In this document: positions 42,298 through 60,842 of the stretch, one piece after another
How the letters are laid out: each line of letters starts with the position of its first letter
Numbering within the stretch: position 1 is the stretch's first letter
Assembly (NCBI RefSeq): GCF_002804205.1
Contig: NZ_CP024962.1
Span: forward strand, 434,001-498,000
Reading direction: 5' to 3'
Origin: Entomoplasma freundtii
Lineage (GTDB): Bacteria; Bacillota_I; Bacilli_A; Mycoplasmatales; Mycoplasmataceae
Length of the DNA: 64,000 bases
Translations under genes and position numbers: made by a program
The notes under the pieces: generated by a model
What the model saw: the letters and a program-made list of their open reading frames with translations, nothing else
Database searches by the model: none
What the model was told of the DNA's origin: nothing

Positions 42298-43992
42298 ATG
42301 CATAAGATATTATTGGTATCATTTGCAGCAACACTATCAGCCCCAACAATTGCTAACCCTTCAAGCCAAATTGTCGTTTCAAAACAATACAAAAATCAAA
42401 TTGATAATCTTTTATTAAAATATGAAAAAGAAGTAGAAAAGAATAACACAATTTTTATTAATAAGACACATATCAATGGAAATGAAGAAAAATATTTATA
42501 CAATTTTTTTAATAATAAATCTATAAATGAAATTTCTATTAAAGCCAAAAGGGCCAATAGAGAAAGAAAAGTCAATAATAGCCCAATAAATATAAAAGAA
42601 GAAATAGATAACAATATAAAAAAATATGAAATAAATTATCAATTACATGACAATAGTTATACTGGAAGCATCAATATCTATGACAACGAGAAAATTAAAA
42701 TTATTATTCAAAGTTATATTTCAAAATTATTTAATAATTTTGAAATAACCAACTTAGAAAATGCGCAAGATGATTTTAAAATTATTAAAAACTATTTAAC
42801 TTTATTAAAAGAAGATTCCCCAGATGATTACATATATACCACTGAAGCAATTTCTAAAACCTTTAATGACAATATTGGTTATTTTGAAAATAATAAAACT
42901 TTGAACTATTTAAATACTAATGGGTGAAATTTAGTTAAAGGTGAATCTGAAAATGAAAATGAACCAGACTTCTTCTCACAATCATTTAATGGTTGAGAGA
43001 TTAACCGAAATTGAGATACGTTCAAAACAATTGTTGTAACTACAATTGTTTGAACAATAAAAAAATTGCTTAAAGAGCCACGCAAAATAACTACTATGAT
43101 TGTGGTTGAAACAATAAGCTCCTTATTAATAGGATCTGTTATATCTCCAATAATAACAGCAACCATTTTAACTTTGGTCAGCGTAATTATTAATATAGTT
43201 GCAAAATATGCAATTAAAAAAATTTCTAAAAATTTATCAGAAGAGGTTTACACTGCCGTTTTTGGAGAGAAACCTAAAAAATTAGAAAAAACAATAAAAG
43301 AAAATAAAGAAATTATTTCCAAAGTTTATGGTTCAAATTATGGCGATATTTTTGAAAATTATTTGAATCAAGGTTTCAATAATGGTTTTTGAAATAAAAT
43401 TAAAGGTGCCTTTGGTAAAGATAATATAAAAGATAGATCAATTTTTCTTTACAACAAGAGTGCCAATTCTAATTGGTTATTAAAAGAAATGAAAATTTAT
43501 TCTTTTGCAAAATATAGAAAATGGTTGCCTTGACAAACATACAATGTAGAAAATAGTAGAATTTCCCAAGAAAATTTAAACAACGAAATTGTTTTTTATT
43601 CAGCGACTAACGCAACGAAAGGGTCTTGGACAGGAACATATTTTGGGCCGATTGAAGATGCTAAAAAAAATTATTATGACCTTCATTGATCAAGAAACTT
43701 TTTAGAATGAACTTCATTATCAATTACTCCAAAATTTGCAAAAGTTTCTTCCGCTTTAATTCAATCTAGATTTGTAACGAGTAGTTACGAAATGTCTGAA
43801 AATATAGTCAATATATATAATGAACATGGTAAGGATATTAGCAAAGGTCTTGATAAAGAAACCAAGGAAATAGTTGAAAATTTAGCCAAAATTAAAAAGG
43901 ATGAAATAAATAAAAAACCAAGAGTTGAAGATGAAGACTTGAAAAATAAAGAAATGGAACTAATTAAATTATTTGGAGAAATTATTAATTAA
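42298..43992 (+). CDS. Unrecognised exported/membrane protein of 564 residues
   Basis: The frame is continuous from ATG 42298 to TAA 43990 when about 13 TGA codons are read as Trp. The start MHKILLVSFAATLSAPTIANP looks like a signal peptide without a lipobox Cys. Residues 24-235 are very rich in Asn, Lys, Ile and Glu. Hydrophobic segments follow at about 241-250 and 258-298 (TTMIVVETISSLLIGSVISP, ITATILTLVSVIINIVAKYA). The last ~260 residues are aromatic-rich (KYRKWLPWQTYNVEN, SWTGTYFGPIEDAKKNYYDLHW) and end in a charged helix. I recognise no family. It is more AT-rich than its neighbours and opposite in strand. AAAAGG is 12 bases before the ATG. The next gene starts three bases after the stop, so they form a pair. 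Confidence 0.7.
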
Positions 43993-43995
43993 TTA

Positions 43996-44730
43996 ATGAA
44001 AAAAATAAATAAAGAATTTGAAAAAAAGAACTTGTCACTAGATTTAAAGGATTATCTCACTTTAACACAGAAAAAAGTCTTGATTAGTTTGGTTGTAGCC
44101 TCACTAACTTTTGTAGTTACTGGAGTAATCTTAATTTATTTATTAACGATTAGTCTTAATTCTTCAAACGACTCCCTAATTAACAAAATTACAATTATTC
44201 AATGCCTTCTTATTCTTCCTTGTCTAATCTCTTTTAACTATTCGTTATGATTAATGTCATTATTTATCAATATTAATAAATTAAAAAATAATCTTTCTGA
44301 GATTCATCATTGATCATTACCTAAGAAAAAGAAATATTTTAGAACTTTTATATTAGTAGCCAAAATAAATTTTTCGCGACGCAATATCATCGCAGTTATT
44401 CAAGAAACTCAAACAATTTTTCAAAAATATATCCTTGACGAATCAAACCATTTATTTGATTACTCCACAACGAATTATGTTTTTGAACCGGTTGTAGAAA
44501 CCGCGACAATGTTTTTTAGTGATTTTTATATTTTTGATTTAATTGCCTTAGTTTTTTGACTCATCATTGGTTTTTTGCCAAAGACTTGAATTCGCCTAAA
44601 AAATGGTATCCATCTTAATTTTTTTAAAGCGAAAGCAAATGAAAATATCCAAAATAATTTTAGAACTATAAGCAGCAGTTTTCTCCAAACTTTAGGAATT
44701 AAAAAAGAAAGTGAAACGGTTAGTTATTAA
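43996..44730 (+). CDS. Unrecognised multi-span membrane protein, partner of the 42298 gene
   Basis: This 244-residue protein is read through six or so TGA codons as Trp. It begins with a charged segment MKKINKEFEKKNLSLDLKDY, then two helices (VLISLVVASLTFVVTGVILIYLL; IIQCLLILPCLISFNYSLWLMSLF). A soluble central part of about 90 residues follows, then a third helix (FDLIALVFWLIIGFLPKTWI) and a basic tail. No family is recognised. It follows the larger exported protein by three bases and ends before a strong two-way terminator, so the two genes form one transcription unit. An accessory or immunity role for it is conjecture. Confidence 0.68.
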
Positions 44731-49167: not shown

Positions 49168-49197
49168 AAAAAACTTAGACAAATGTCTAAGTTTTTT
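49168..49197. terminator. Two-way terminator between DUF488 and RNase Y genes
   Basis: The 13-bp stem AAAAAACTTAGAC / GTCTAAGTTTTTT with a 4-base loop touches the stop codons of both convergent genes. Confidence 0.88.
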
Positions 49198-50710
49198 ATT
49201 TTTTGATTACTTTCACCAATCGGCGTTCACGAATGATGGTGATGGTGATTTCACCAGGAATAATAATATTTTCTAAAAGCTTATGTTTTACTTCTTCAAT
49301 TAGGTTTTCTAACTCATGTTCACCCATCATATTTGGATCAACAATTACCCGAATTTGACGACCAGATTGAAAAGCATAAATTTTTTCAACTCCCGGAATC
49401 TCTTGGGCAATTTTTTCAATTTGGGTCATCCGGCGATAGAAATCGTCACTAGTATTATTACGAGCCCCCGGACGTGAAGCGCTGATACTATCAGCGATTG
49501 CCACAACGGCGGCAATCGTCGATTGTTTAGCCACGTCTTCATGATGGGCCTCAATAGCATTAATGACAATATCATCCTCGTTATATTGGCGGGCCAATTC
49601 GGCTCCCAAGGTTACATGACTTCCTTCTTCTTCAAAATCCACAGCTTTTCCGATGTCATGTAATAAGCCAGCACGAATGGCCGTTTGAATATCAAGACCT
49701 AATTCACTCGCAATTGCTCCCGAAATTTTCGCCACTTCCAAAGAGTGGTGAAGAGCGTTTTGTCCATAACTAGTACGATATTTTAAGCGGCCAACAAGTT
49801 TTACTAACGGAATCTCCATATCGAGAATCCCTAACTCCTGAAGTGCCTTTTGACCAGTTTCAAAAATGATACTTTCAATTTCCTTTTCTTGTTTTTTTAG
49901 TTCTGCTTCAATCCTTGCTGGTTGAATCCGACCATCGGCCACCAATTTTTCAAGAGCTTTAGTAGTAATTTCACGACGAATAGGATTAAAAGAAGAAACT
50001 GTTACAATTCCAGGAGTTTCATCAATTAAAATATCAACTCCTCCAAATTGCTCAAAGGTACGCATATTTCGGCCTTCACGACCAATCACACGACCCTTAA
50101 TTTCATCATTTGGTAATTTAACGATGTTGGTTGTTTTTTCATTGACAATCTCAGTAGCATAGCGTTCCATGGCATTAACAATGATGTTAGTGGCCATTTC
50201 TTTTGCTTGGGCATGAGTTTCTAATTCGGCATTTTTTAAATAGGAATTAAGTTCTTTTTTATGTCTTAACTCCATTTGTTTCATTAAATTTTTGCGCGCT
50301 TCTTCTCGACTCATTCCCGAAATACTCTCTAAAAGAGAAATCATTTTCGAAGTTTTTTTCTCGTATTCTTTACTTCTTTTTTCCAAAGCTAATTCATAGC
50401 CATCAAGACGTTCTTGACGCATTTCTAAGAAACGTTCCTTTTTGGCGAGAGCACTTTCTTCATTATGAAGTTTTTCTTTTTCAAGGTTTAGTTTGTGAGT
50501 TCGTTTATCGCACTCATGATCAAACTCCAGTTTTAGTTCATTGACCTCGCGATAGCCTTTAGTCACAATTTGCTTCTTAAGTTGTTTAGCTTCTTTTTCG
50601 GCTTTTTTGACTAATTGGCGGCGTGATTTGGCAAAAGCGAGCCAAATTGATAACAATCCTAGAAGTAAAACCGCCACTCCAAGGATGATTAAAAAGATAT
50701 TTTTAAGCAT
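49196..50710 (-). CDS. rny: Ribonuclease Y
   Basis: RNase Y (504 aa) is the membrane-bound endonuclease that starts mRNA decay. It has an N-terminal membrane helix (residues 4-25, FLIILGVAVLLLGLLSIWLAF), a long coiled coil (to about 190), a KH domain with IKGRVIGREGRNMRTFEQFGG, and an HD domain with AIRAGLLHDIGKAVDFEEEGSH. It has no TGA codon. It starts at ATG 50710, behind AGAAAGGATTAGAAA. Confidence 0.97.
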   Translation of the reverse strand: MLKNIFLIILGVAVLLLGLLSIWLAFAKSRRQLVKKAEKEAKQLKKQIVTKGYREVNELKLEFDHECDKRTHKLNLEKEKLHNEESALAKKERFLEMRQERLDGYELALEKRSKEYEKKTSKMISLLESISGMSREEARKNLMKQMELRHKKELNSYLKNAELETHAQAKEMATNIIVNAMERYATEIVNEKTTNIVKLPNDEIKGRVIGREGRNMRTFEQFGGVDILIDETPGIVTVSSFNPIRREITTKALEKLVADGRIQPARIEAELKKQEKEIESIIFETGQKALQELGILDMEIPLVKLVGRLKYRTSYGQNALHHSLEVAKISGAIASELGLDIQTAIRAGLLHDIGKAVDFEEEGSHVTLGAELARQYNEDDIVINAIEAHHEDVAKQSTIAAVVAIADSISASRPGARNNTSDDFYRRMTQIEKIAQEIPGVEKIYAFQSGRQIRVIVDPNMMGEHELENLIEEVKHKLLENIIIPGEITITIIRERRLVKVIKK

Positions 50711-50809
50711 TTTCTAATCCTTTCTGATTAGAAAAACTGTGGTTGTATTCGCTACTCTATTTATTATAAAGAAAACTACCCAAAAGAAAATGAAGGCTTT
50801 AGATAAAGA

Positions 50810-50839
50810 AAAAATACCAACGATGTAGTTGGTATTTTT
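50810..50839 (-). terminator. Terminator of the 50859-54242 lipoprotein gene
   Basis: The 12-bp stem AAAAATACCAAC / GTTGGTATTTTT with a 6-base loop lies 20 bases after the lipoprotein stop, upstream of rny. Confidence 0.85.
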
Positions 50840-50858
50840 ACAAATTATTTAGTTATTA

Positions 50859-53800
50859 TTAAATGTCGTTTTTTACATGAAATTCAATAAATGCGGTGAT
50901 GGTTTCTGTTTGTCCCTTTTCATTAGAGTAAACAAATGAAAGTTGATAATCAGTAGATTTATCATCGGAATCAGTTTTCACGAAATCTGTTCAATCTATA
51001 TTAGCTATATTAAAAACATAACCTTTAAATAAATTAGTCATAGCCTCTTCGACTTGTTCAATTGCTAAATTTTTTAAATTATCTTTATTGGTATCTTCGA
51101 CGTCGGATGGATTAAGGTCATTAACTTCTTCCCTGTTTTCCTCGTAATAATCACTCATCTTCTTCGACATTTCTTCTAAAGAAATAGTTTTATCCAGAGC
51201 ACTAATAGTAACTTTTACTGAACCAGTATATTTAACAACACCATCAGCAGGAATGATTGTTGCTGAACCAACTACTCCTTCGCTCGCTTTAACTAAATCA
51301 GTTACTTGTAAATCAGTTGTTTTAAGTCCTGACTCAGGGTTTAAATCTAAGATTTTAGTAAGAATTGAAGTTGCATCGTTGGCTTCGTTTCCATCAACAG
51401 TAAGTTCGGTAAGTTTATCTTTGATGTCAATTTGTGCTAGAGCACTAATGGTAACTTTTACTGAACCAGTATATTTAACAACACCATCAACAGGAATGAT
51501 TGTTGCTGAACCAACTACTCCTTCGCTCGCTTTAACTAAATCAGTTACTTGTAAATCAGTTGTTTTAAGTCCTGACTCAGGGTTTAAATCTAAGATTTTA
51601 GTAAGAATTGAAGTTGCATCGTTGGCTTCGTTTCCATCAACAGTAAGTTCGGTAAGTTTATCTTTGATGTCAATTTGTGCTAGAGCACTAATGGTAACTT
51701 TTACTGAACCAGTATATTTAACAACACCATCAGCAGGAATGATTGTTGCTGAACCAACTACTCCTTCGCTCGCTTTAACTAAATCAGTTACTTGTAAATC
51801 AGTTGGTTGAAGTCCTGACTCAGGGTTTAAATCTAAGATTTTAGTAATAATTGAAGTTGCATCGTTGGCTTCGTTTCCATCAACATTAAGTTCGGTAAGT
51901 TTATCTTTGATATCAATTTGTGCTAGAGCACTAATAGTAACTTTTACTGAACCAGTATATTTAACAACACCATCAGCAGGAATGATTGTTGCTGAACCAG
52001 CAACTCCTTCAGTCGCTTTAACTAAATCAGTTACTTGTAAATCAGTTGTTTTAAGTCCTGACTCAGGGTTTAAATCTAAGATTTTAGTAAGAATTGAAGT
52101 TGCATCGTTGGCTTCGTTTCCATCAACAGTAAGTTCGGTAAGTTTATCTTTGATGTCAATTTGTGCTAGAGCACTAATGGTAACTTTTACTGAACCAGTA
52201 TATTTAACAACACCATCAGCAGGCTTAATGGTTGCTGAACCAGCAACTCCTTCAGTCGCTTTAACTAAATCAGTTACTTGTAAATCAGTTGGTTGAAGTC
52301 CTGACTCAGGGTTTAAATCTAAGATTTTAGTAATAATTGAAGTTGCATCGTTGGCTTCACTACCATCAACATTAAGTTCGGTAAGTTTATCTTTGATGTC
52401 AATTTGTGCTAGAGCACTAATAGTAACTTTTACTGAACCAGTATATTTAACAACACCATCAGCAGGAATGATTGTTGCTGAACCAACTACTCCTTCAGTC
52501 GCTTTAACTAAATCAGTTACTTGTAAATCAGTTGGTTGAAGTCCTGACTCAGGGTTTAAATCTAAGATTTTAGTAATAATTGAAGTTGCATCGTTGGCTT
52601 CACTACCATCAACATTAAGTTCGGTAAGTTTATCTTTGATATCAATTTGTGCTAGAGCACTAATAGTAACTTTTACTGAACCAGTATATTTAACAACACC
52701 ATCAGCAGGAATGATTGTTGCTGAACCAGCAACTCCTTCAGTCGCTTTAACTAAATCAGTTACTTGTAAATCAGTTGTTTTAAGTCCTGACTCAGGGTTT
52801 AAATCTAAGATTTTAGTAAGAATTGAAGTTGCATCGTTGGCTTCACTACCATCAACAGTAAGTTCGGTAAGTTTATCTTTGATGTCAATTTGTGCTAGAG
52901 CACTAATGGTAACTTTTACTGAACCAGTATATTTAACAACACCATCAGCAGGCTTAATGGTTGCTGAACCAGCAACTCCTTCAGTCGCTTTAACTAAATC
53001 AGTTACTTGTAAATCAGTTGGTTGAAGTCCTGACTCAGGGTTTAAATCTAAGATTTTAGTAATAATTGAAGTTGCATCGTTGGCTTCACTACCATCAACA
53101 TTAAGTTCGGTAAGTTTATCTTTGATATCAATTTGTGCTAGAGCACTAATAGTAACTTTTACTGAACCAGTATATTTAACAACACCATCAGCAGGCTTAA
53201 TGGTTGCTGAACCAGCAACTCCTTCAGTCGCTTTAACTAAATCAGTTACTTGTAAATCAGTTGGTTGAAGTCCTGACTCAGGGTTTAAATCTAAGATTTT
53301 AGTAATAATTGAAGTTGCATCGTTGGCTTCACTACCATCAACATTAAGTTCGGTAAGAAGACTTTTTAGATCTTTTGTATTAATTTTATAATCAACAGCA
53401 ATGCTATCTCTATATTTTCCATTTGCATTAGCAGTAACAAGTGCACCTGTTGGTGTAATGTCCGAAATTGTAAGATAAATAGCCTTTAAATTAATATCGG
53501 GATTTACTTCATTTATTCTAACCACGATTTCATTAGAATTTGGCAAATCATCAAATGTGCCAAGGTCGGTAACTTGAACTAAATCTTTCAAGGAATCTTT
53601 AAGTACGCTAAAAGTTACAGCAACCGAGCTCTCCGAATATAAATTATTTGCTGAGACTATAGCTTGAACAGTAGCTCCTGTCAACGTAATATCCGTAATA
53701 GTTGCTTCGTTGTTTAAATGAGCATTAGGATTTAAGGATTCTATCTTTTGGATTATTTCATTTTCGGTCGGTTCGTCATTAAATATGCCTAACGAAGTTT

Positions 53801-54242
53801 CTTTTATCACCGATGATAATGGTGTATTATCATTAAACTTTAAAGTGACTTTAACACTTCCCTTTAAAATAGATGATTCTTTTTTGGCTGTAACAACTAA
53901 TTCAATTTCATTTGATTCACCAATTTTGATATTTCCAGATTCATCGATGAAGTCATCGATATTTGTTATAAAGTCATCGGTGTAATCGTTAAGTGCATAT
54001 TCTGAGTTTTTAGCATTAATTTGCTCGCTAACATTTCTCTCAATATCATTAACAATATCTTTTAATTGCTCTGCAGTGTATACCTTGCTTTGAGGAATAG
54101 GTAATTCAATTGCTTTTAATTGCAGTTTTTGCAAATCTTGTTTGTTATCAGACTTATTGTCATTTGATTTACATGCAACTACTGGAACTGCGGCAGTAGC
54201 TGTAAAGCCAACGGCCGCTAATAAAGATAGTAAACGTTTCAT
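50859..54242 (-). CDS. Repeat lipoprotein with nine near-identical 81-residue repeats
   Basis: The 1127-residue protein starts MKRLLSLLAAVGFTATAAVP with lipobox VVAC (Cys-24), so it should be anchored on the cell surface. A unique N domain (about 25-145) is homologous to that of the gene at 54554-59581. Two diverged repeats follow, then nine repeats of 81 residues (296-1014) that end VVKYTGSVKVTISAL. The C-terminal ~110 residues are unique, with a helical part and an end EFHVKNDI seen only after the single TGA at 50991 (Trp). The repeats resemble the 'lipoprotein associated domain' (PF04200-like) of mycoplasmas. Probable adhesin or size-variable surface antigen; this is inference. It has its own -10 box at 54271-54276. 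Confidence 0.85.
51198..53357 (-). repeat. Array of nine in-frame 243-bp tandem repeats
   Basis: The unit is 243 bp exactly (for example the same motif at 53098 and 53341) and keeps the reading frame. The copies are almost identical in DNA, including silent positions. Two linked variants alternate irregularly: ELNVDG..SIITK..LQPTDL and ELTVDG..SILTK..LKTTDL. A second set of variants (GVAGSATIKP, GVAGSATIIP, GVVGSATIIP) assorts partly independently. The last copy is slightly short. Confidence 0.95.
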
Positions 54243-54270
54243 GTGTTTCTCCTTTTTCTTTCAAGGTTAT

Positions 54271-54276
54271 ATTATA
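54271..54276 (-). promoter_or_regulatory. -10 box of the 50859-54242 lipoprotein
   Basis: TATAAT (in CTATAATATAACC) lies about 29 bases upstream of the ATG on the minus strand; the ribosome site AAAGAAAAAGGAGAAACAC follows. No clear -35 box. Confidence 0.55.
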
Positions 54277-54386
54277 GTAAAAAAATGATTATATAAATGG
54301 TATGAAAAAAAGTTTCAAAAAGTAAAAAAATATACGCCAGGAATGGTTTTTTTTAAATTTTTAAATTTAAAAATTAAGACCAATCT

Positions 54387-54442
54387 ATTTTCAAATCAAA
54401 AAATAAGAGTAAAATTTTACTCTTATTTTTTGATTTGAAAAT
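54387..54442. terminator. 56-bp perfect palindrome after the 1675-residue lipoprotein gene
   Basis: Two 28-base arms (54387-54414 and 54415-54442) are exact inverse complements with no spacer. The centre is AGAGTAAAATTTTACTCT, and the arms include TTTTTT, so the folded RNA can act as an intrinsic terminator about 110 bases after the stop at 54554. The outer arms contain CAAATCA / TGATTTG. Confidence 0.8.
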
Positions 54443-54553
54443 TTTTAACCATGTTTTAAATTTGCCAATCACGCAATTACTTAGATTGACTTAAATTGGA
54501 CTTTGTTTTAGGTTTTAACCAAGTTTAAAAGTGGTATCTAATAACGTCTGAAA

Positions 54554-57500
54554 CTAAAGGGTTTTAATCGTAAAAACAACGTTTACCGATCCTTGGTAAA
54601 TGCTCGATTTAGTAGCAGTTAAAGTGGCAAATGTATTGTTAGAGTTAACTACAATCGTAACATCACTAACATTTAAGTTAGCGTTGGGATTTTTAGCATT
54701 AACTGCAGCTATAATAGTGGCCGGATCAGTGTTATCAATCTCACCAAGCTCAAAATTAGTAATTACAGAATCTAGTTGTTCTCTAATGTTGAAAGTGACG
54801 TCTACCGAACCTTGATAATTACTGGTTTGTGTAGCAGTTAAAGTGGCATTATTTTCCCCTTTAACATCAATGGTAACATCCGTTTCCTTTAAGTTGACGT
54901 TGGGATTTTGTAGATTAACAGCCTCTAGAATAGTTGATAATTCATTGTTATTAATATATCCAAGGTTACGGTCAACAACTACTGTGTCCAAATCTTGTTT
55001 AATAGTGAACGTGACGTCTACCGACCCTTGATAGATGCTACTGGGATTGGCCGTTAGTGTAGCACCAGTCTTATCATTATTAACAACAATAGTAACTTCA
55101 TCACTTGTTAGTTGAAAATCTTTATTAACTGCATTAACGGCATTCAAAATTGTTTCATCATCAGTGTTATCTAAAATACCAAGTGCCGTTACTTTAACTA
55201 TCGAATCTAAAGTTGCCTTAATTGTAAAAGTGACGTTTACTGTACCTTCATAAGCACTTTCTTTAGTAGCCGTTAAGATTGCCTTATCCTGACTTCCGCC
55301 AATTTGAATTGTGACATCGGTGTCTTTTAAGTTGGCACTTGGGTTTTTAACATTAACAGCAGCTAAAATATTAGTAGAGTCTGCCTTATCTATAGGACCA
55401 AGATTTGTTACTTTAACTATCGAATCTAAAGTCGGTTTAATTGTAAAAGTGACAGTCACTGAGCCTTGATAGATACTAGATTGGGTGGCAGTTAAAGTAG
55501 CCTCATTATCTCCTATTATTTCAATATTAACATCAGAAGCTTTTAAGTTAGCGTTGGGGTTTTTAGCATTAACAGCAGCTAAAATAATGTCATCGGTTAA
55601 ATTGTCGATGGCCCCAAGATCGCGATTAGTAACTACAGAACTTAATTGGGTTCTGACAGTGAAAGTAACAGTCACTGAGCCTTGGTAGACACCTGTTGAA
55701 GTAGCGGTTAAAGTAGCCTCATTATCTCCTGTTATTTCGATATTAACGTCAGAAGCTTTTAAGTTAGCGTTGGGGTTTTTAGCATTAACAGCAGCTAAAA
55801 TAATGTCGTCGGTTAAATTGTCAATATCCCCAAGATCAAGGTTAGTAACTACTGAACTTAATTGAGTTCTGACAATGAAAGTGACATCAACTGAACCTTG
55901 ATAGTTACTAGTTTCAATAGCAGTTAAAGTGGCACTACTATTGCTATTAACTTTAATAGTGACATCAATAGTGGTTAGGTTTAAACCACTATTGACTTGG
56001 TTAACAGCAGCTAAAATAGTGTTATTGTCAGCGTCATTTAATTTGCCAAGGTCAGTCACTTTAACTACTGAATCTAAAGCTATTTTAATTGTGAAAGTAA
56101 CAGTCACTGAGCCTTGATAGAGGCTAGATTGTGTGGCAGTTAAAGTAGCACTATCATTTCCGATAATTTGAATATCAACATCTGAAGTAGTTAAACTAAT
56201 ACCATTGACTTGATTAACAGCAACTAAAATAGTTGTTGAGTCAGCTTTATTTATGGATCCAAGGTTTGTCTTTGACACTACTGAACTTAATTGGGTTCTG
56301 ACAATGAAAGTGACATCAACTGAACCTTGATAATTACTAGTTTCGGTGGCAGTTATGGTAGCACTACTATTGCTATTAACTTTAATAGTGACATCACTTG
56401 TGGTTAGGTTTAAACCACTATTAACTTGGTTAACAGCTGCTAAAATAGTGCTACTGTCAGTGTCATTTAACTTACCAAGGTCTGTGGCTTTAACTACTGA
56501 ATCTAAAGCTATTTTAATAGTAAAGGTAACAGTCACTAATCCTTGATAATTTCCATCAGGATTAGCAGTTAAAGTAGCACTTTTATTGTCATCATTAACT
56601 TTAATTGAAACATCAGCAGTGGTTAGTTTTAAACCGTTGGCTGCATTAACTGCATTTAAAATAGTTGCTTCGGAATTATTGTCAATATTACCAAGATTTA
56701 AGTTGGTAACTACAGAACTTAATTGAGTTCTAATATTGAAAGTAACAGATACCGAATCTTTATATATGCTAGTTTCGGTAGCGGTTAAATTAGCGCCATC
56801 TTGAGTCACATTGATGATGATAGTGACATCATTAGTAGTGAGGTTTAAACCTTTATTGGCTGCATTAACAGCAGCTAAGATAGTGGTGTTGTTAGCTTCA
56901 TTTAACTTACCAAGGTCAGTCACTTTAACTACTGAATCTAAAGCTATTTTAATTGTGAAAGTAACAGTCACTGAGCCTTGATAGATACTAGATGAAGTAC
57001 TAGTTAAAGTAGCACTCTTATTGTCAGTATCAATCGCAATCGTGACATCCGATGCTTTTAAACTAACATTAGTGTTTTTAGCATTCACTGCATCTAAAAT
57101 AGTTTCATCATTGACTGGGTCCAAATTACCAAGGTCAGTGACTTTAACTACTAATTCCAACGTAGCTTTGATAGTGAAGGTCACTTCAACAGAACCTTGA
57201 TAATTCCCATCAGGATTAGCAGTTAAAGTAGCACTCTTATCGTCGGGGTTAGTCACAACAGTTACATCATTGTTGGTTAGGTTTAAGTCGTTAACTGAGT
57301 TAACCTCAGCCAAGATAGTAGCTGAATCTGCCTTATCTATAGGACCAAGGTCAGTGACTTTAACTACTGAATCTAAAGCTATTTTAATAGTAAAGGTAAC
57401 AGTCACTGAGCCTTGATAGATGCTAGATGAGGTACTAGTTAAAGTAGCACTACTATTGTTGATATTTTGGATATCAACATCCGAGGCATTTAAATTAATG

Positions 57501-59581
57501 CTATTGACTTGGTTAACAGCATTTAAAATGGTTGTGGCGTCAGCTTTGATTATAGGTCCAAGGTTTGTTTTTGTAACTACAGAACTTAATTGAGTTCTAA
57601 CAATGAAAGTAACATTTACAAAACCTTTATAATTGCCATTCGGGGTTGCGGTTAATGTCGCACCATCTTTATTCTCATTAATAGCAATTGTGACATCATT
57701 ATTGGTTAGGTTTAAACCACTATTAACTTGGTTAACAGCATTTAAAATGGTGCTATTATCAGTGTCATTTAACTTACCAAGGTCAGTCACTTTAACTACT
57801 GAATCTAAAGCTATTTTAATTGTGAAAGTAACAGTCACTGAGCCTTGATAATTCCCATCAGGATTAGCAGTTAAAGTAGCACTTTTATTGTCATCATTAA
57901 CTTTAATTGAAACATCAGCAGTGGTTAGTTTTAATCCACTGTTTGCTTGATTGACAGCCGCTAAAATAGTGTCATCATCAGCATTATCTAAATTACCAAG
58001 CGCAGTAACTTTAACTACTGAATCTAAGGCTGTTTTTACAGTGAAAGTAACAGTCACTGAGCCTTTATAGAGGCTAGATGAGGTTGCAGTCAATGTCGCA
58101 CCATCTTTATTCTCATTAATAGCAATTGTGACATCATTATTGGTTAGGTTTAAACCACTATTGACTTGGTTAACAGCATTTAAAATAGTGTTATTATCAG
58201 TGTCATTCAACTTACCAAGGTCTGTGACTTTAACTACTGAATCTAAAGTTATTTTAATTGTGAAAGTAACAGTCACTGAGCCTTGATAATTCCCATCAGG
58301 ATTAGCAGTTAAAGTAGCACTTTTCTTGTCATCATTAACTTTAATTGAAACATCAGCAGTGGTTAGTTTTAATCCACTGTTTGCTTGATTGACAGCTGCT
58401 AAAATAGTGTCATCATCAGCATTATCTAAATTACCAAGCGCAGTAACTTTAACTACTGAATCTAAGGCTGTTTTTACAGTGAAAGTAACAGTCACTGAGC
58501 CTTGATAGAGGCTAGATTGGGTAGCAGTTAAAGTTGCGCCATTGTTATCGCTATTAACAGCGATCTGAACATCCGAAGTTTTTAAGTTCGCATCGGTGTT
58601 TTTCGCATTAACTGCCGCTAAGATAGTTGCATTGGCATTGTTATCAATATTACCAAGGTCAAGGTTAGTAACTACGGTACTTAATTGTTTTCTGATTGTG
58701 TAAGTAACGTCTATAGAACCTTGATAATTACTAGTTTCGGTGGCAGTTATGGTAGCACCATTATTGGCACTATTAGTAACAATCGTGACATCGGTTGTTT
58801 TTAAATTTGCTTCAGGGTTTAGTTGGTTAATGGCATTTAGAATAGTTTCATTAGTGGCGTCATTGACGAGTCCTAGTGAAGTATTAGTAATCACTTCACT
58901 TAATTGTTTTTTCCCCACAACTTTATAAGTAACATTTATTTGACCTTCATACAAACTATTATTAGAGTCAATAGCCTTAACTGTTGCCCCATTAAGATTG
59001 ATTGATGAAGCAAGAACTTCAACCTCATCCTCATCAATAAGTGCTTGTGGGTTTAAGGCTGATAAAGCTCCAATAATGTCGCTTGCTGTTGGCTCAGTTT
59101 GGAATTCGCCCAAATTAGTATTATTGATGACACTTGCTAATTGCGTGTTGGGATTAAATTTTATAGTTGCATTAGTTTTTCCTGTCAATATCTTCGAATT
59201 TTGGTTAGCGGAAATATTGATTTGGATTTCACCTGAACCATCGATTTTAACAGTTTCGTCTGGTTTGATAAAATCGGCAATATTCGTGGTGAAATCATCA
59301 GTATAGTCAATCATATCTTGATTTTGAATGTTATTTTTAAACTTGGTATCTTCGTTAATTTGGTCATTAATATTTTGGGTCATCATACTGATAACAAAAT
59401 TTGCTTGTTTGGAAGTGTAAGAGGTTGCCTTGGGTATAGGCAAATTGATTTGCCTTATTTGCAAAGTTCCTAAGTCTTTTATACCTGAATTATTTGTATT
59501 TGTTTTACAACAAGCCACGACGGGCACTGCGGTAGTGGTTGTAAAACCAATGGCCGTTAGTAACGTAAGTAAACGTTTCAT
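54554..59581 (-). CDS. Giant repeat lipoprotein with 21 diverged ~72-residue repeats
   Basis: This 1675-residue protein starts MKRLLTLLTAIGFTTTTAVP with lipobox VVACC (Cys-24/25). Residues 30-147 are a unique N domain homologous to that of the 50859-54242 protein (IDYTDDFTTNIADFI against LNDYTDDFITNIDDFI). From residue 148 to the end I count 21 repeats of about 72 residues, each starting 'L.SVV....LG.ID' and ending 'ATLTA..S.YQGSVTVTF.I'. They are of the mollicute lipoprotein-repeat type. No Trp (neither TGA nor TGG) is present in the whole protein, which fits a long beta-rich fibre. TAG stop at 54554. Own -10 box at 59609. A surface adhesin or antigen is the likely role, by inference. Confidence 0.87.
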   Translation of the reverse strand: MKRLLTLLTAIGFTTTTAVPVVACCKTNTNNSGIKDLGTLQIRQINLPIPKATSYTSKQANFVISMMTQNINDQINEDTKFKNNIQNQDMIDYTDDFTTNIADFIKPDETVKIDGSGEIQINISANQNSKILTGKTNATIKFNPNTQLASVINNTNLGEFQTEPTASDIIGALSALNPQALIDEDEVEVLASSINLNGATVKAIDSNNSLYEGQINVTYKVVGKKQLSEVITNTSLGLVNDATNETILNAINQLNPEANLKTTDVTIVTNSANNGATITATETSNYQGSIDVTYTIRKQLSTVVTNLDLGNIDNNANATILAAVNAKNTDANLKTSDVQIAVNSDNNGATLTATQSSLYQGSVTVTFTVKTALDSVVKVTALGNLDNADDDTILAAVNQANSGLKLTTADVSIKVNDDKKSATLTANPDGNYQGSVTVTFTIKITLDSVVKVTDLGKLNDTDNNTILNAVNQVNSGLNLTNNDVTIAINENKDGATLTATSSSLYKGSVTVTFTVKTALDSVVKVTALGNLDNADDDTILAAVNQANSGLKLTTADVSIKVNDDNKSATLTANPDGNYQGSVTVTFTIKIALDSVVKVTDLGKLNDTDNSTILNAVNQVNSGLNLTNNDVTIAINENKDGATLTATPNGNYKGFVNVTFIVRTQLSSVVTKTNLGPIIKADATTILNAVNQVNSINLNASDVDIQNINNSSATLTSTSSSIYQGSVTVTFTIKIALDSVVKVTDLGPIDKADSATILAEVNSVNDLNLTNNDVTVVTNPDDKSATLTANPDGNYQGSVEVTFTIKATLELVVKVTDLGNLDPVNDETILDAVNAKNTNVSLKASDVTIAIDTDNKSATLTSTSSSIYQGSVTVTFTIKIALDSVVKVTDLGKLNEANNTTILAAVNAANKGLNLTTNDVTIIINVTQDGANLTATETSIYKDSVSVTFNIRTQLSSVVTNLNLGNIDNNSEATILNAVNAANGLKLTTADVSIKVNDDNKSATLTANPDGNYQGLVTVTFTIKIALDSVVKATDLGKLNDTDSSTILAAVNQVNSGLNLTTSDVTIKVNSNSSATITATETSNYQGSVDVTFIVRTQLSSVVSKTNLGSINKADSTTILVAVNQVNGISLTTSDVDIQIIGNDSATLTATQSSLYQGSVTVTFTIKIALDSVVKVTDLGKLNDADNNTILAAVNQVNSGLNLTTIDVTIKVNSNSSATLTAIETSNYQGSVDVTFIVRTQLSSVVTNLDLGDIDNLTDDIILAAVNAKNPNANLKASDVNIEITGDNEATLTATSTGVYQGSVTVTFTVRTQLSSVVTNRDLGAIDNLTDDIILAAVNAKNPNANLKASDVNIEIIGDNEATLTATQSSIYQGSVTVTFTIKPTLDSIVKVTNLGPIDKADSTNILAAVNVKNPSANLKDTDVTIQIGGSQDKAILTATKESAYEGTVNVTFTIKATLDSIVKVTALGILDNTDDETILNAVNAVNKDFQLTSDEVTIVVNNDKTGATLTANPSSIYQGSVDVTFTIKQDLDTVVVDRNLGYINNNELSTILEAVNLQNPNVNLKETDVTIDVKGENNATLTATQTSNYQGSVDVTFNIREQLDSVITNFELGEIDNTDPATIIAAVNAKNPNANLNVSDVTIVVNSNNTFATLTATKSSIYQGSVNVVFTIKTL
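54557..59140 (-). repeat. 21 diverged tandem protein repeats
   Basis: Units vary from 70 to 78 residues and fall into subtypes by their opening: SVVKVT.LG, SVVTNLDLG and SVV(T/S)KTNLG. Two pairs are close copies: units 4-5 repeat as 6-7 (DNADDDTILAAVNQANSGLK then LNDTDN.TILNAVNQVNSGLN), and units 16 and 17 are nearly identical. This shows local duplication within an older array. Confidence 0.85.
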
Positions 59582-59608
59582 GGAGCTCCCTTTTTATTTT
59601 GAATTGGC

Positions 59609-59614
59609 ATTATA
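59609..59614 (-). promoter_or_regulatory. -10 box of the 1675-residue lipoprotein gene
   Basis: TATAAT lies 28 bases upstream of the ATG, the same spacing as in the paralogous gene at 54242. The ribosome site is AAAGGGAGCTCC. Confidence 0.55.
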
Positions 59615-59727
59615 TTAAAATATAAAAAATTATAAATAGTGAAATAGTTAAAACTTCCAAAAATTGAAAAAAAAAATCCAGAAAAATGGCTTTGAGAAAT
59701 ATAAAAAATAAAAATAAGGGCCGTTGG

Positions 59728-59781
59728 TTTCCAAACCCAAAAAAAAGAGTAAAATTTTACTCTTTTTTTTGGGTTTGGAAA
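59728..59781. terminator. 54-bp perfect palindrome at the end of recA
   Basis: Two 27-base arms (59728-59754 and 59755-59781) are exact inverse complements with no spacer. The centre AGAGTAAAATTTTACTCT is the same 18 bases as in the palindrome at 54387-54442, while the outer arms differ (CCAAACCC / GGGTTTGG). The recA stop codon (59757-59759) and its last eight codons lie inside the palindrome. It includes a run of eight T on either strand and should terminate recA. Confidence 0.85.
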
Positions 59782-60842
59782 TTCTGAAAAGTTTCTTTGA
59801 ATTTATCAATTAATTCAGGTTTATTTTCTAATCACTTTAAAGTTGCTTGTCGACCTTGACCAATTTTCTCGTTTTCATAAGAATATCAGGAACCAGATTT
59901 TTGGAGCAAGTTAGTTTCTAAAGCAAGATCCAAAATTTCTCCAAGCTTATCAATGCCTTCGTTGTATTTAATAGCAATAAGAGCTGTCTTGAAAGGTGGC
60001 GCAACTTTGTTTTTGGTGACCTTTACTTTAACCCGATTACCAATGATGTCCGTATTTTCAGTGATAGTCTCACCCTTACGTACCTCTAGTCGAATTGATG
60101 AATAAAAGCGAAGCGCTCTCCCGCCCGGAGTTACCTCGGGATTGCCAAAAATTACACCTACTTTTTCGCGGAGTTGGTTGGTAAAAATTACAATAGTGTT
60201 TGTTTTGGCAATAATACCGTTTAATTTACGAAGTGCCTTTGACATTAAACGGGCTTGAAGACCAATTGTTTGGTCACCCATATCGCCATCTAACTCTGCT
60301 TTAGGAGTTAAGGAAGCAACAGAGTCTAAAACAATAATGCCCACTAGATTGGATTTAACAAGCATCTCAAGAATATCTAACGCTTGTTCTCCATAATCTG
60401 GTTGTGACACCAAAAGATCCTTGAGATTAACGCCAAGATTTTGGGCGTAACGCGGGTCTAAAGAGTGTTCGACGTCAAGAAAAGCAGCAACACCGCCTTT
60501 TTTTTGGACTTCTGCAATTGCATGAAGACCCAAGGTTGTTTTTCCCGATGATTCTGGACCATAGATTTCGATAATCCGACCTTTAGGGTAGCCACCAACT
60601 CCTAAGATTTGGTCAATCAAAAAACTTCCTGATGAAACTGTCTCTACCCTTAAGTTTTCTTCAGCAGTATCAAGATGCATAATGGCATTTTTACCAAATT
60701 GTTTTTCAATATCCTTAATTACTTCATCTAGTAATTCTGGATTTCAAATCTTTTTTTCATTCAAGGATGTCGCCTCTCCTAAACTAGTATTGTTAATATT
60801 TATTTTAGCTTTCGTGTCTTTGTCTTTGACTTGAAGTTTCAT
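59757..60842 (-). CDS. recA: Recombinase RecA
   Basis: RecA (361 aa from ATG 60842) drives strand exchange. It has [14 protein letters not shown], Walker [18 protein letters not shown], the MAW region [13 protein letters not shown], Walker [19 protein letters not shown]2 [22 protein letters not shown], and a C-terminal domain that ends TQKKE. Two TGA codons are read as Trp, near residue 33 and in the C domain. Two starts compete: ATG 60842 (behind GAGG) gives a 26-residue extension of unusual length; TTG 60764, behind AGGAGAGG, gives 335 residues, closer to the family. RecA looks intact, whereas several spiroplasmas have a truncated recA. Confidence 0.95.

Follow-up and report, generated by a model that had tools for sequence, protein, structure and literature searches.

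The DNA analysed here, which we call the window, is a stretch of 64,000 nucleotides from contig NZ_CP024962.1 of Entomoplasma freundtii. Its GC content is 34.3%, and the source genome is a single contig of 838,114 bp; the published description gives 838 kb and 34.6% GC, and lists an insect host (PMC6117150). Two genes for paralogous lipoproteins, P0001 and P0002, are located between rny and recA, and P0001 carries an array of tandem repeats. The features are listed in Table 1. In the code 4 reading of P0001, one TGA codon is translated as Trp, and the frame stays open across the array in the list of open reading frames. Residues 1-24 matched the NCBIfam model LP_plasma (NF038029) with 31.2 bits against a cut-off of 24, and with this lipobox score the product is predicted to be anchored at the cell surface, as is characteristic of the Periscope Proteins discussed below. 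The following region, residues 25-141, gave a weak score against Spiralin when it was tested alone (16.8 bits; cut-off 25). The C-terminal 111 amino acids had no match in Pfam and no recognised binding domain, and the protein ends in ...ITAFIEFHVKNDI, where no hydrophobic helix is visible in the sequence. The terminator-like hairpin between the two genes suggests that P0001 and P0002 are probably separate transcription units. On the opposite strand of the array, an open frame of 712 aa (51253-53391, plus strand, code 4) is probably a by-product of the repeats. Elsewhere in the window, two adjacent genes for membrane or secreted proteins of unknown kind (42298-44730, plus strand) lie amid minus-strand genes.

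Table 1. Features of the rny-recA region (window positions)
Feature	Position	Strand	Remarks
rny (ribonuclease Y)	49196..50710	-	brackets the lipoprotein pair together with recA
P0001, array-bearing lipoprotein gene	50859..54242	-	1127 aa, code 4; LP_plasma (NF038029) match
P0001 C-terminal part of 111 aa (residues 1017-1127), unique and predicted to be the distal tip	50862..51194	-
P0001 nine-unit array, 243 bp (81 aa) each	51196..53357	-	unit starts from 53357 (unit 1) to 51413 (unit 9), 243-bp spacing
P0001 two divergent domains of the array type, residues 142-216 and 218-290	53373..53819	-	home-built profile, 53-54 bits
P0001 N-terminal region without repeats (residues 25-141), also conserved in P0002	53820..54170	-
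P0001 signal peptide with lipobox (residues 1-24, ...AVPVVAC), predicted to carry the lipid anchor at the N terminus	54171..54242	-
Perfect hairpin and T-run between P0001 and P0002	54391..54438	.	terminator-like, consensus match only
P0002, paralogous lipoprotein, 1675 aa, 21 degenerate domains of ~73 aa	54554..59581	-
recA, intact 361-aa frame, candidate recombinase	59757..60842	-

The array was detected by TRF at 51196-53357 as 8.9 copies of a 243-bp unit with 97% match, 0% indels and a score of 3890, and it is the strongest repeat within the 64-kb window. A first-pass annotation of this DNA, made from the letters alone, had described nine near-identical units that keep the frame at 81 codons, and this was confirmed: the nine units are in register, each of exactly 81 codons. 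The pairwise DNA identity is 92.6-100% among units 1-8 and 87-100% among all of the array units, with no difference between units 2 and 5 in all 243 bp. The 7 residues usually found upstream are missing from the first unit, and the 8 that usually close a unit are missing from the last one; such edges are normal for an expanded array. The same annotation called the units almost identical even at silent sites. The near-identity is right, but it is not absolute, as the mean pS among the units is 0.069. The mean pN is 0.031, and the ratio of 0.45 indicates constraint on the unit sequence, not diversification.

The variants within the units are arranged in linked blocks. The left block reads N/I/QP in units 1, 2, 4, 5 and 7, and T/L/KT in units 3, 6, 8 and 9. 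The second block reads A-K in units 1, 2 and 5, V-I in units 4, 7, 8 and 9, and A-I in units 3 and 6. The shared core of the units contains 17 variable sites, 16 of them common to at least two units, and 49 of 120 site pairs failed the four-gamete test, with an Rm of 4. In all eight possible cases, the variant at column 206 of one unit agrees with the left block of the next unit. Therefore, one linked block spans the unit boundary, and the mosaic order claimed for these blocks is partly a matter of the register in which the units are cut. The blocks themselves are real, and Rm is still 3 in other registers, so that their differing combinations need at least 3-4 recombinations.

The identity between units declines with their distance in the array, from 97.1% at lag 1 to 93.1% at lag 8, and a peak of 97.5% stands at lag 3 (729 bp). 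In the lag-3 match, a run of 278 bp and another of 239 bp nearly adjoin, with three changes between them, and this points to a duplication of three units. The distance decay and the 729-bp higher-order repeat together fit unequal crossing-over. The whole pattern fits a history of repeated local duplication, including one three-unit event, with additional recombination or short conversion tracts. Gene conversion could also keep the units alike by concerted evolution while the copy number and the length stay stable, and the small clusters of linked changes at codons 8-9, 47-48 and 52-54, which interrupt stretches of identity, have the appearance of short conversion tracts. However, the higher-order repeat and the distance decay point to duplication, and the orthologous arrays of relatives differ in unit count, so that a stable number appears rather improbable to us.

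A further possibility is that the array is real and its copy number or order is partly a product of the assembly, short reads having been joined in one of several possible orders or lengths. The E. freundtii genome was assembled with Velvet from one MiSeq library with inserts of ~550 bp (PMC6117150), the region has exact repeats of up to 278 bp, which leave k-mers up to 271 still ambiguous, and tandem-repeat gaps were left unresolved in some M. florum strains in another study (PMC5893858). On the other hand, every exact repeat is shorter than the insert, and the types of 550-bp fragment with ends of 250 or 300 bases are never duplicated, so that the array is resolvable in principle; the coverage was ~880x (PMC6117150). 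We therefore regard an assembly effect on number or order as a minority possibility that deserves attention.

Comparative evidence for length change was obtained from Mesoplasma. The orthologous Mesoplasma lipoprotein ends in a chitinase-like GH18 domain (5.8e-16), and the number of its domains is ten in genomes G010 and G013, against seven in genomes G011, G012 and G014. The difference sits at domain 3, where G010 and G013 have four units and the other three genomes have one. The identity among units 4-6 is 93-99% inside one genome and about 79-84% between G010 and G013, which on these sequences is a pattern of concerted evolution. In the single unit of G014, the left sites are those of the first unit of G013, except for one site matching neither, and the right sites are all those of the last unit of G013, with one switch between them. 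No d4-type units were found elsewhere in the short-form genomes G011, G012 and G014. Both unit lineages are present in G010, which the flank identities place as the outgroup, and the one-unit form is therefore the derived state. An assembly collapse behind the one-unit state was considered and is unlikely, as the sequence shared at the junction measures ~78 bp in G013 and leftover units are absent. Judged from the alignment, the hybrid unit of G014 is the footprint of recombination between repeats. The earlier reading of the P0001 array as a product of recent unequal crossing-over or gene conversion is thus in agreement with the pattern in the array, and orthologues in close relatives have changed their length by homologous recombination between repeats.

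Each unit probably corresponds to a folded domain. A profile iterated from the P0002 domains found 21 domains in P0002 itself and 11 in P0001, of which nine are alike and two divergent. Its hits on the array units cover residues 292-370, 373-451 and so on to 940-1018, one domain per unit. In the structure model of two P0001 units (pLDDT 85.4), a beta-alpha-beta-beta-beta pattern is present in both units, and a model of a P0002 domain pair reached a pLDDT of 96.0 and a pTM of 0.80. From these models, each unit is predicted to be one alpha/beta domain of ~80 aa. The array unit and the P0002 domains are likely to be related, if remotely, as hhalign aligned them with an E value of 1.6e-4 and a probability of 51%. 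The fold matches were weak, with a best Z of 6.0 (InlK) for the P0001 model and 5.5 for the P0002 model. Domains of S-layer proteins and Siglec adhesins were among the solved structures matched, with Z of about 4-4.6, and so were Rib domains (8yke, Z 4.9, rmsd 3.4, 72 aligned; 6sx1, Z 4.3, rmsd 2.9, 73 aligned; 6s5y, Z 3.9). For P0002, the aRib model scored 16-18 bits against a cut-off of 27, and Rib matched the structure model with a Z of only 3.8, among tied unrelated entries. A Rib fold for the unit is suggestive at most, and we assign the unit to no fold family. Searching the solved structures by sequence found nothing, and neither did a search of viral contigs with the unit DNA. Matches of the whole P0001 to DUF945, CspH-like and similar models were rejected, because they are sums over the repeats and a single unit matches none of them.

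The neighbouring P0002 shares the signal and the N-terminal region of P0001, and by TRF its tandem repeats have 65-86% identity and a period of 438 bp, which corresponds to two domains. The P0002 array looks like an older, decayed expansion. Because the domain tolerates divergence in P0002, the near-identity of the units in P0001 reflects recent copying. In the E. freundtii genome, such domains were detected in these two proteins only. The recA gene close by is intact, as had been noted, with an open frame of 361 aa and 69% aligned identity to that of a congener. Its proximity carries no weight as a clue to the array: the recA-rny neighbourhood is conserved, and what lies between the two genes varies or is missing altogether. 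The gap between the two genes is about 200 bp in two congeners, and it holds unrelated genes in a third and in several other genera. On this comparison, the pair of P0001 and P0002 is lineage-specific at that place. Across the family, the junction (49196-60842 in the window; loci L113-L132) is empty or contains an ABC transporter, nagA/nagB-like genes or lipoproteins.

Related domains were found in many other genomes, as an alignment of two domains matched 54 of 60 genomes of the family and 80 of 298 of the order. Besides the window, arrays of whole domains with at least 90% identity were found at eleven loci (L133, L134, L135, L137, L141, L143, L144, L150, L185, L188 and L191), with periods of 219-252 bp, or 465 bp for two domains; these loci were chosen because they matched, and represent a selected sample, not a rate. 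In relatives, such arrays are followed by GH18 or DUF285, in a layout of stalk and then tip. Several loci have features of their own. At L133/L202 (G010), a lipoprotein has seven 252-bp units with 99% identity followed by DUF285 repeats, namely two repeat systems in one protein. At L188 (G081:C1:327000-330400), a two-domain unit of 465 bp is repeated 2.5 times at 99%, an expansion by domain pairs. At L205 (G017:C1:766500-769000), true spiralin domains form an array of 5.5 copies of a 294-bp unit at 97%, and the spiralin family thus has near-identical arrays as well. Massive expansions of spiralin domains were seen in G001 (54 matches), G002 (55) and G040 (at least 75); many of those in G040 are clustered near 1.13-1.16 Mb, and a series in G002 near 333-336 kb is spaced by exactly 531 bp.

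Taken together, P0001 is best explained, with reasonable though far from full confidence, as a lipid-anchored, periscope-like stalk that displays its C-terminal tip and whose length can be adjusted by recombination. The stalk would consist of the conserved N-terminal region, the two divergent domains and the nine near-identical domains of ~80 aa, with the unique C-terminal part at its tip. The near-identical units would serve as substrates for homologous recombination within the gene, and the array would expand and contract by whole domains in frame, a step for which the comparative evidence comes from Mesoplasma. The domain number may set the reach of the tip from the membrane. We infer surface exposure, a rod shape, dependence on RecA and length change in E. 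freundtii itself. By analogy with related proteins, the benefit would be an adjustable display of the tip toward the surfaces of the insect host. In related mollicutes, attachment to insects involves spiralin and VmpA, which are adhesins of the lipoprotein or membrane type (PMC4804543, PMC7135369), and an adhesion role for P0001 is plausible on this analogy. A broader proposal, for which we give slightly less than an even chance, is that lipid-anchored stalks are a general device of the Entomoplasmatales, in which one widespread family of small domains would be a spacer extendable by recombination, the tips (chitinase-like GH18, DUF285 or of unknown kind) would be interchangeable and the height would be tuned by the domain number.

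The expansion may also be neutral, with frequent tandem duplication tolerated in a spacer and length change bringing no benefit. The occurrence of arrays in many lipoproteins and the decay of the older P0002 array would suit such tolerance. The changes, however, are always of whole domains in frame, the pN/pS of 0.45 indicates purifying selection, and a folding cost has been suggested for adjacent domains of identical sequence (PMC8201768). Neutrality seems to us unlikely on balance, and the adjustable stalk is preferred. The main interest of the locus is the comparative evidence for recombinational length change. Stalks of variable length have been described mainly on walled pathogens. If wall-less symbionts or commensals of insects use a lipid-anchored version, length variation depends neither on a cell wall nor on the immunity of vertebrates, and the laboratory organism Mesoplasma florum, of which thirteen strains have been sequenced, would be a tractable system for the rate and the function of stalk change. 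For mollicute genomes assembled from short reads, the case is a warning that the lengths given for lipoproteins may not be reliable.

Among the known systems, the size-variable mycoplasma antigens had been named as a likeness, and this comparison was not sustained. P0001 resembles the Vsa/Vlp proteins in being a mollicute lipoprotein with repeats, and the repeat number of Vsa/Vlp changes, with size variation known for Vsa (PMC6080569). However, the Vsa repeats are short, 10-19 aa in the C-terminal part, and phase switching and silent copies of the genes are also described (PMC6080569). P0001 showed none of these features; its repeats are predicted to be folded domains of 81 aa, and a unique C-terminal part follows them. 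An antigen of the Vsa/Vlp type, varying in size under selection by adaptive immunity, is very improbable for P0001: P0002 is the only paralogue with the domain in the genome, E. freundtii is listed with an insect host, and the pN/pS of 0.45 speaks against diversifying selection among the units.

In known families, the 73-aa domains of P0002 match both the MAG1450 family (NF046007) and DUF7941 (PF25613) repeatedly, and the P0001 array units match neither. The score of P0002 was below the cut-off for NF046007 (347.8; cut-off 425) and above it for PF25613 (217.6; cut-off 27). P0001 and spiralin are both lipoproteins from one bacterial group. Against Spiralin (PF05215; cut-off 25), the complete P0001 scored 26.2 and a single unit 13.9, the unit covering nearly the whole model; Spiralin had no place in the genome at an E value of 1e-3, and hhalign of the unit against Spiralin gave a probability of 7%.

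The repeats of VmpA and VmpB of the flavescence doree phytoplasma are of 78 aa (234 bp), and the isolates have 2-4 copies in VmpA and 1-3 in VmpB; these repeats are recent duplications, the proteins are insect-associated, and VmpA is an adhesin (PMC7135369). P0001 is likewise a mollicute surface protein, by prediction, with repeats of domain size, a likeness in repeat size and layout. The phytoplasma proteins are anchored by N- and C-terminal transmembrane helices and have fewer copies, whereas P0001 has a lipobox and no visible hydrophobic helix at its C-terminal end.

The Periscope Proteins include SasG, Rib and Sgo_0707 (PMC8201768, PMC9704523). P0001 shares with them tandem, highly identical domains of more than 50 aa (here 81 aa, predicted to be folded), a predicted surface anchor, and a proposed stalk with a tip. 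Recombination changes the copy number in Periscope Proteins, and here the orthologous arrays vary between Mesoplasma species. Mollicutes are not mentioned in the two Periscope Protein papers (PMC8201768, PMC9704523), and a literature search combining periscope and mollicute terms returned only papers on other subjects. P0001 differs from the Periscope Proteins in its N-terminal lipid anchor, C-terminal tip, lack of a cell wall and domain family. In the best reading, Periscope Proteins and the phytoplasma VmpA, not the short-peptide Vsa/Vlp antigens, are the nearest analogues of P0001, which belongs to a kind already known from them, and the lipid anchor, the reversed polarity and the domain family are differences of detail.
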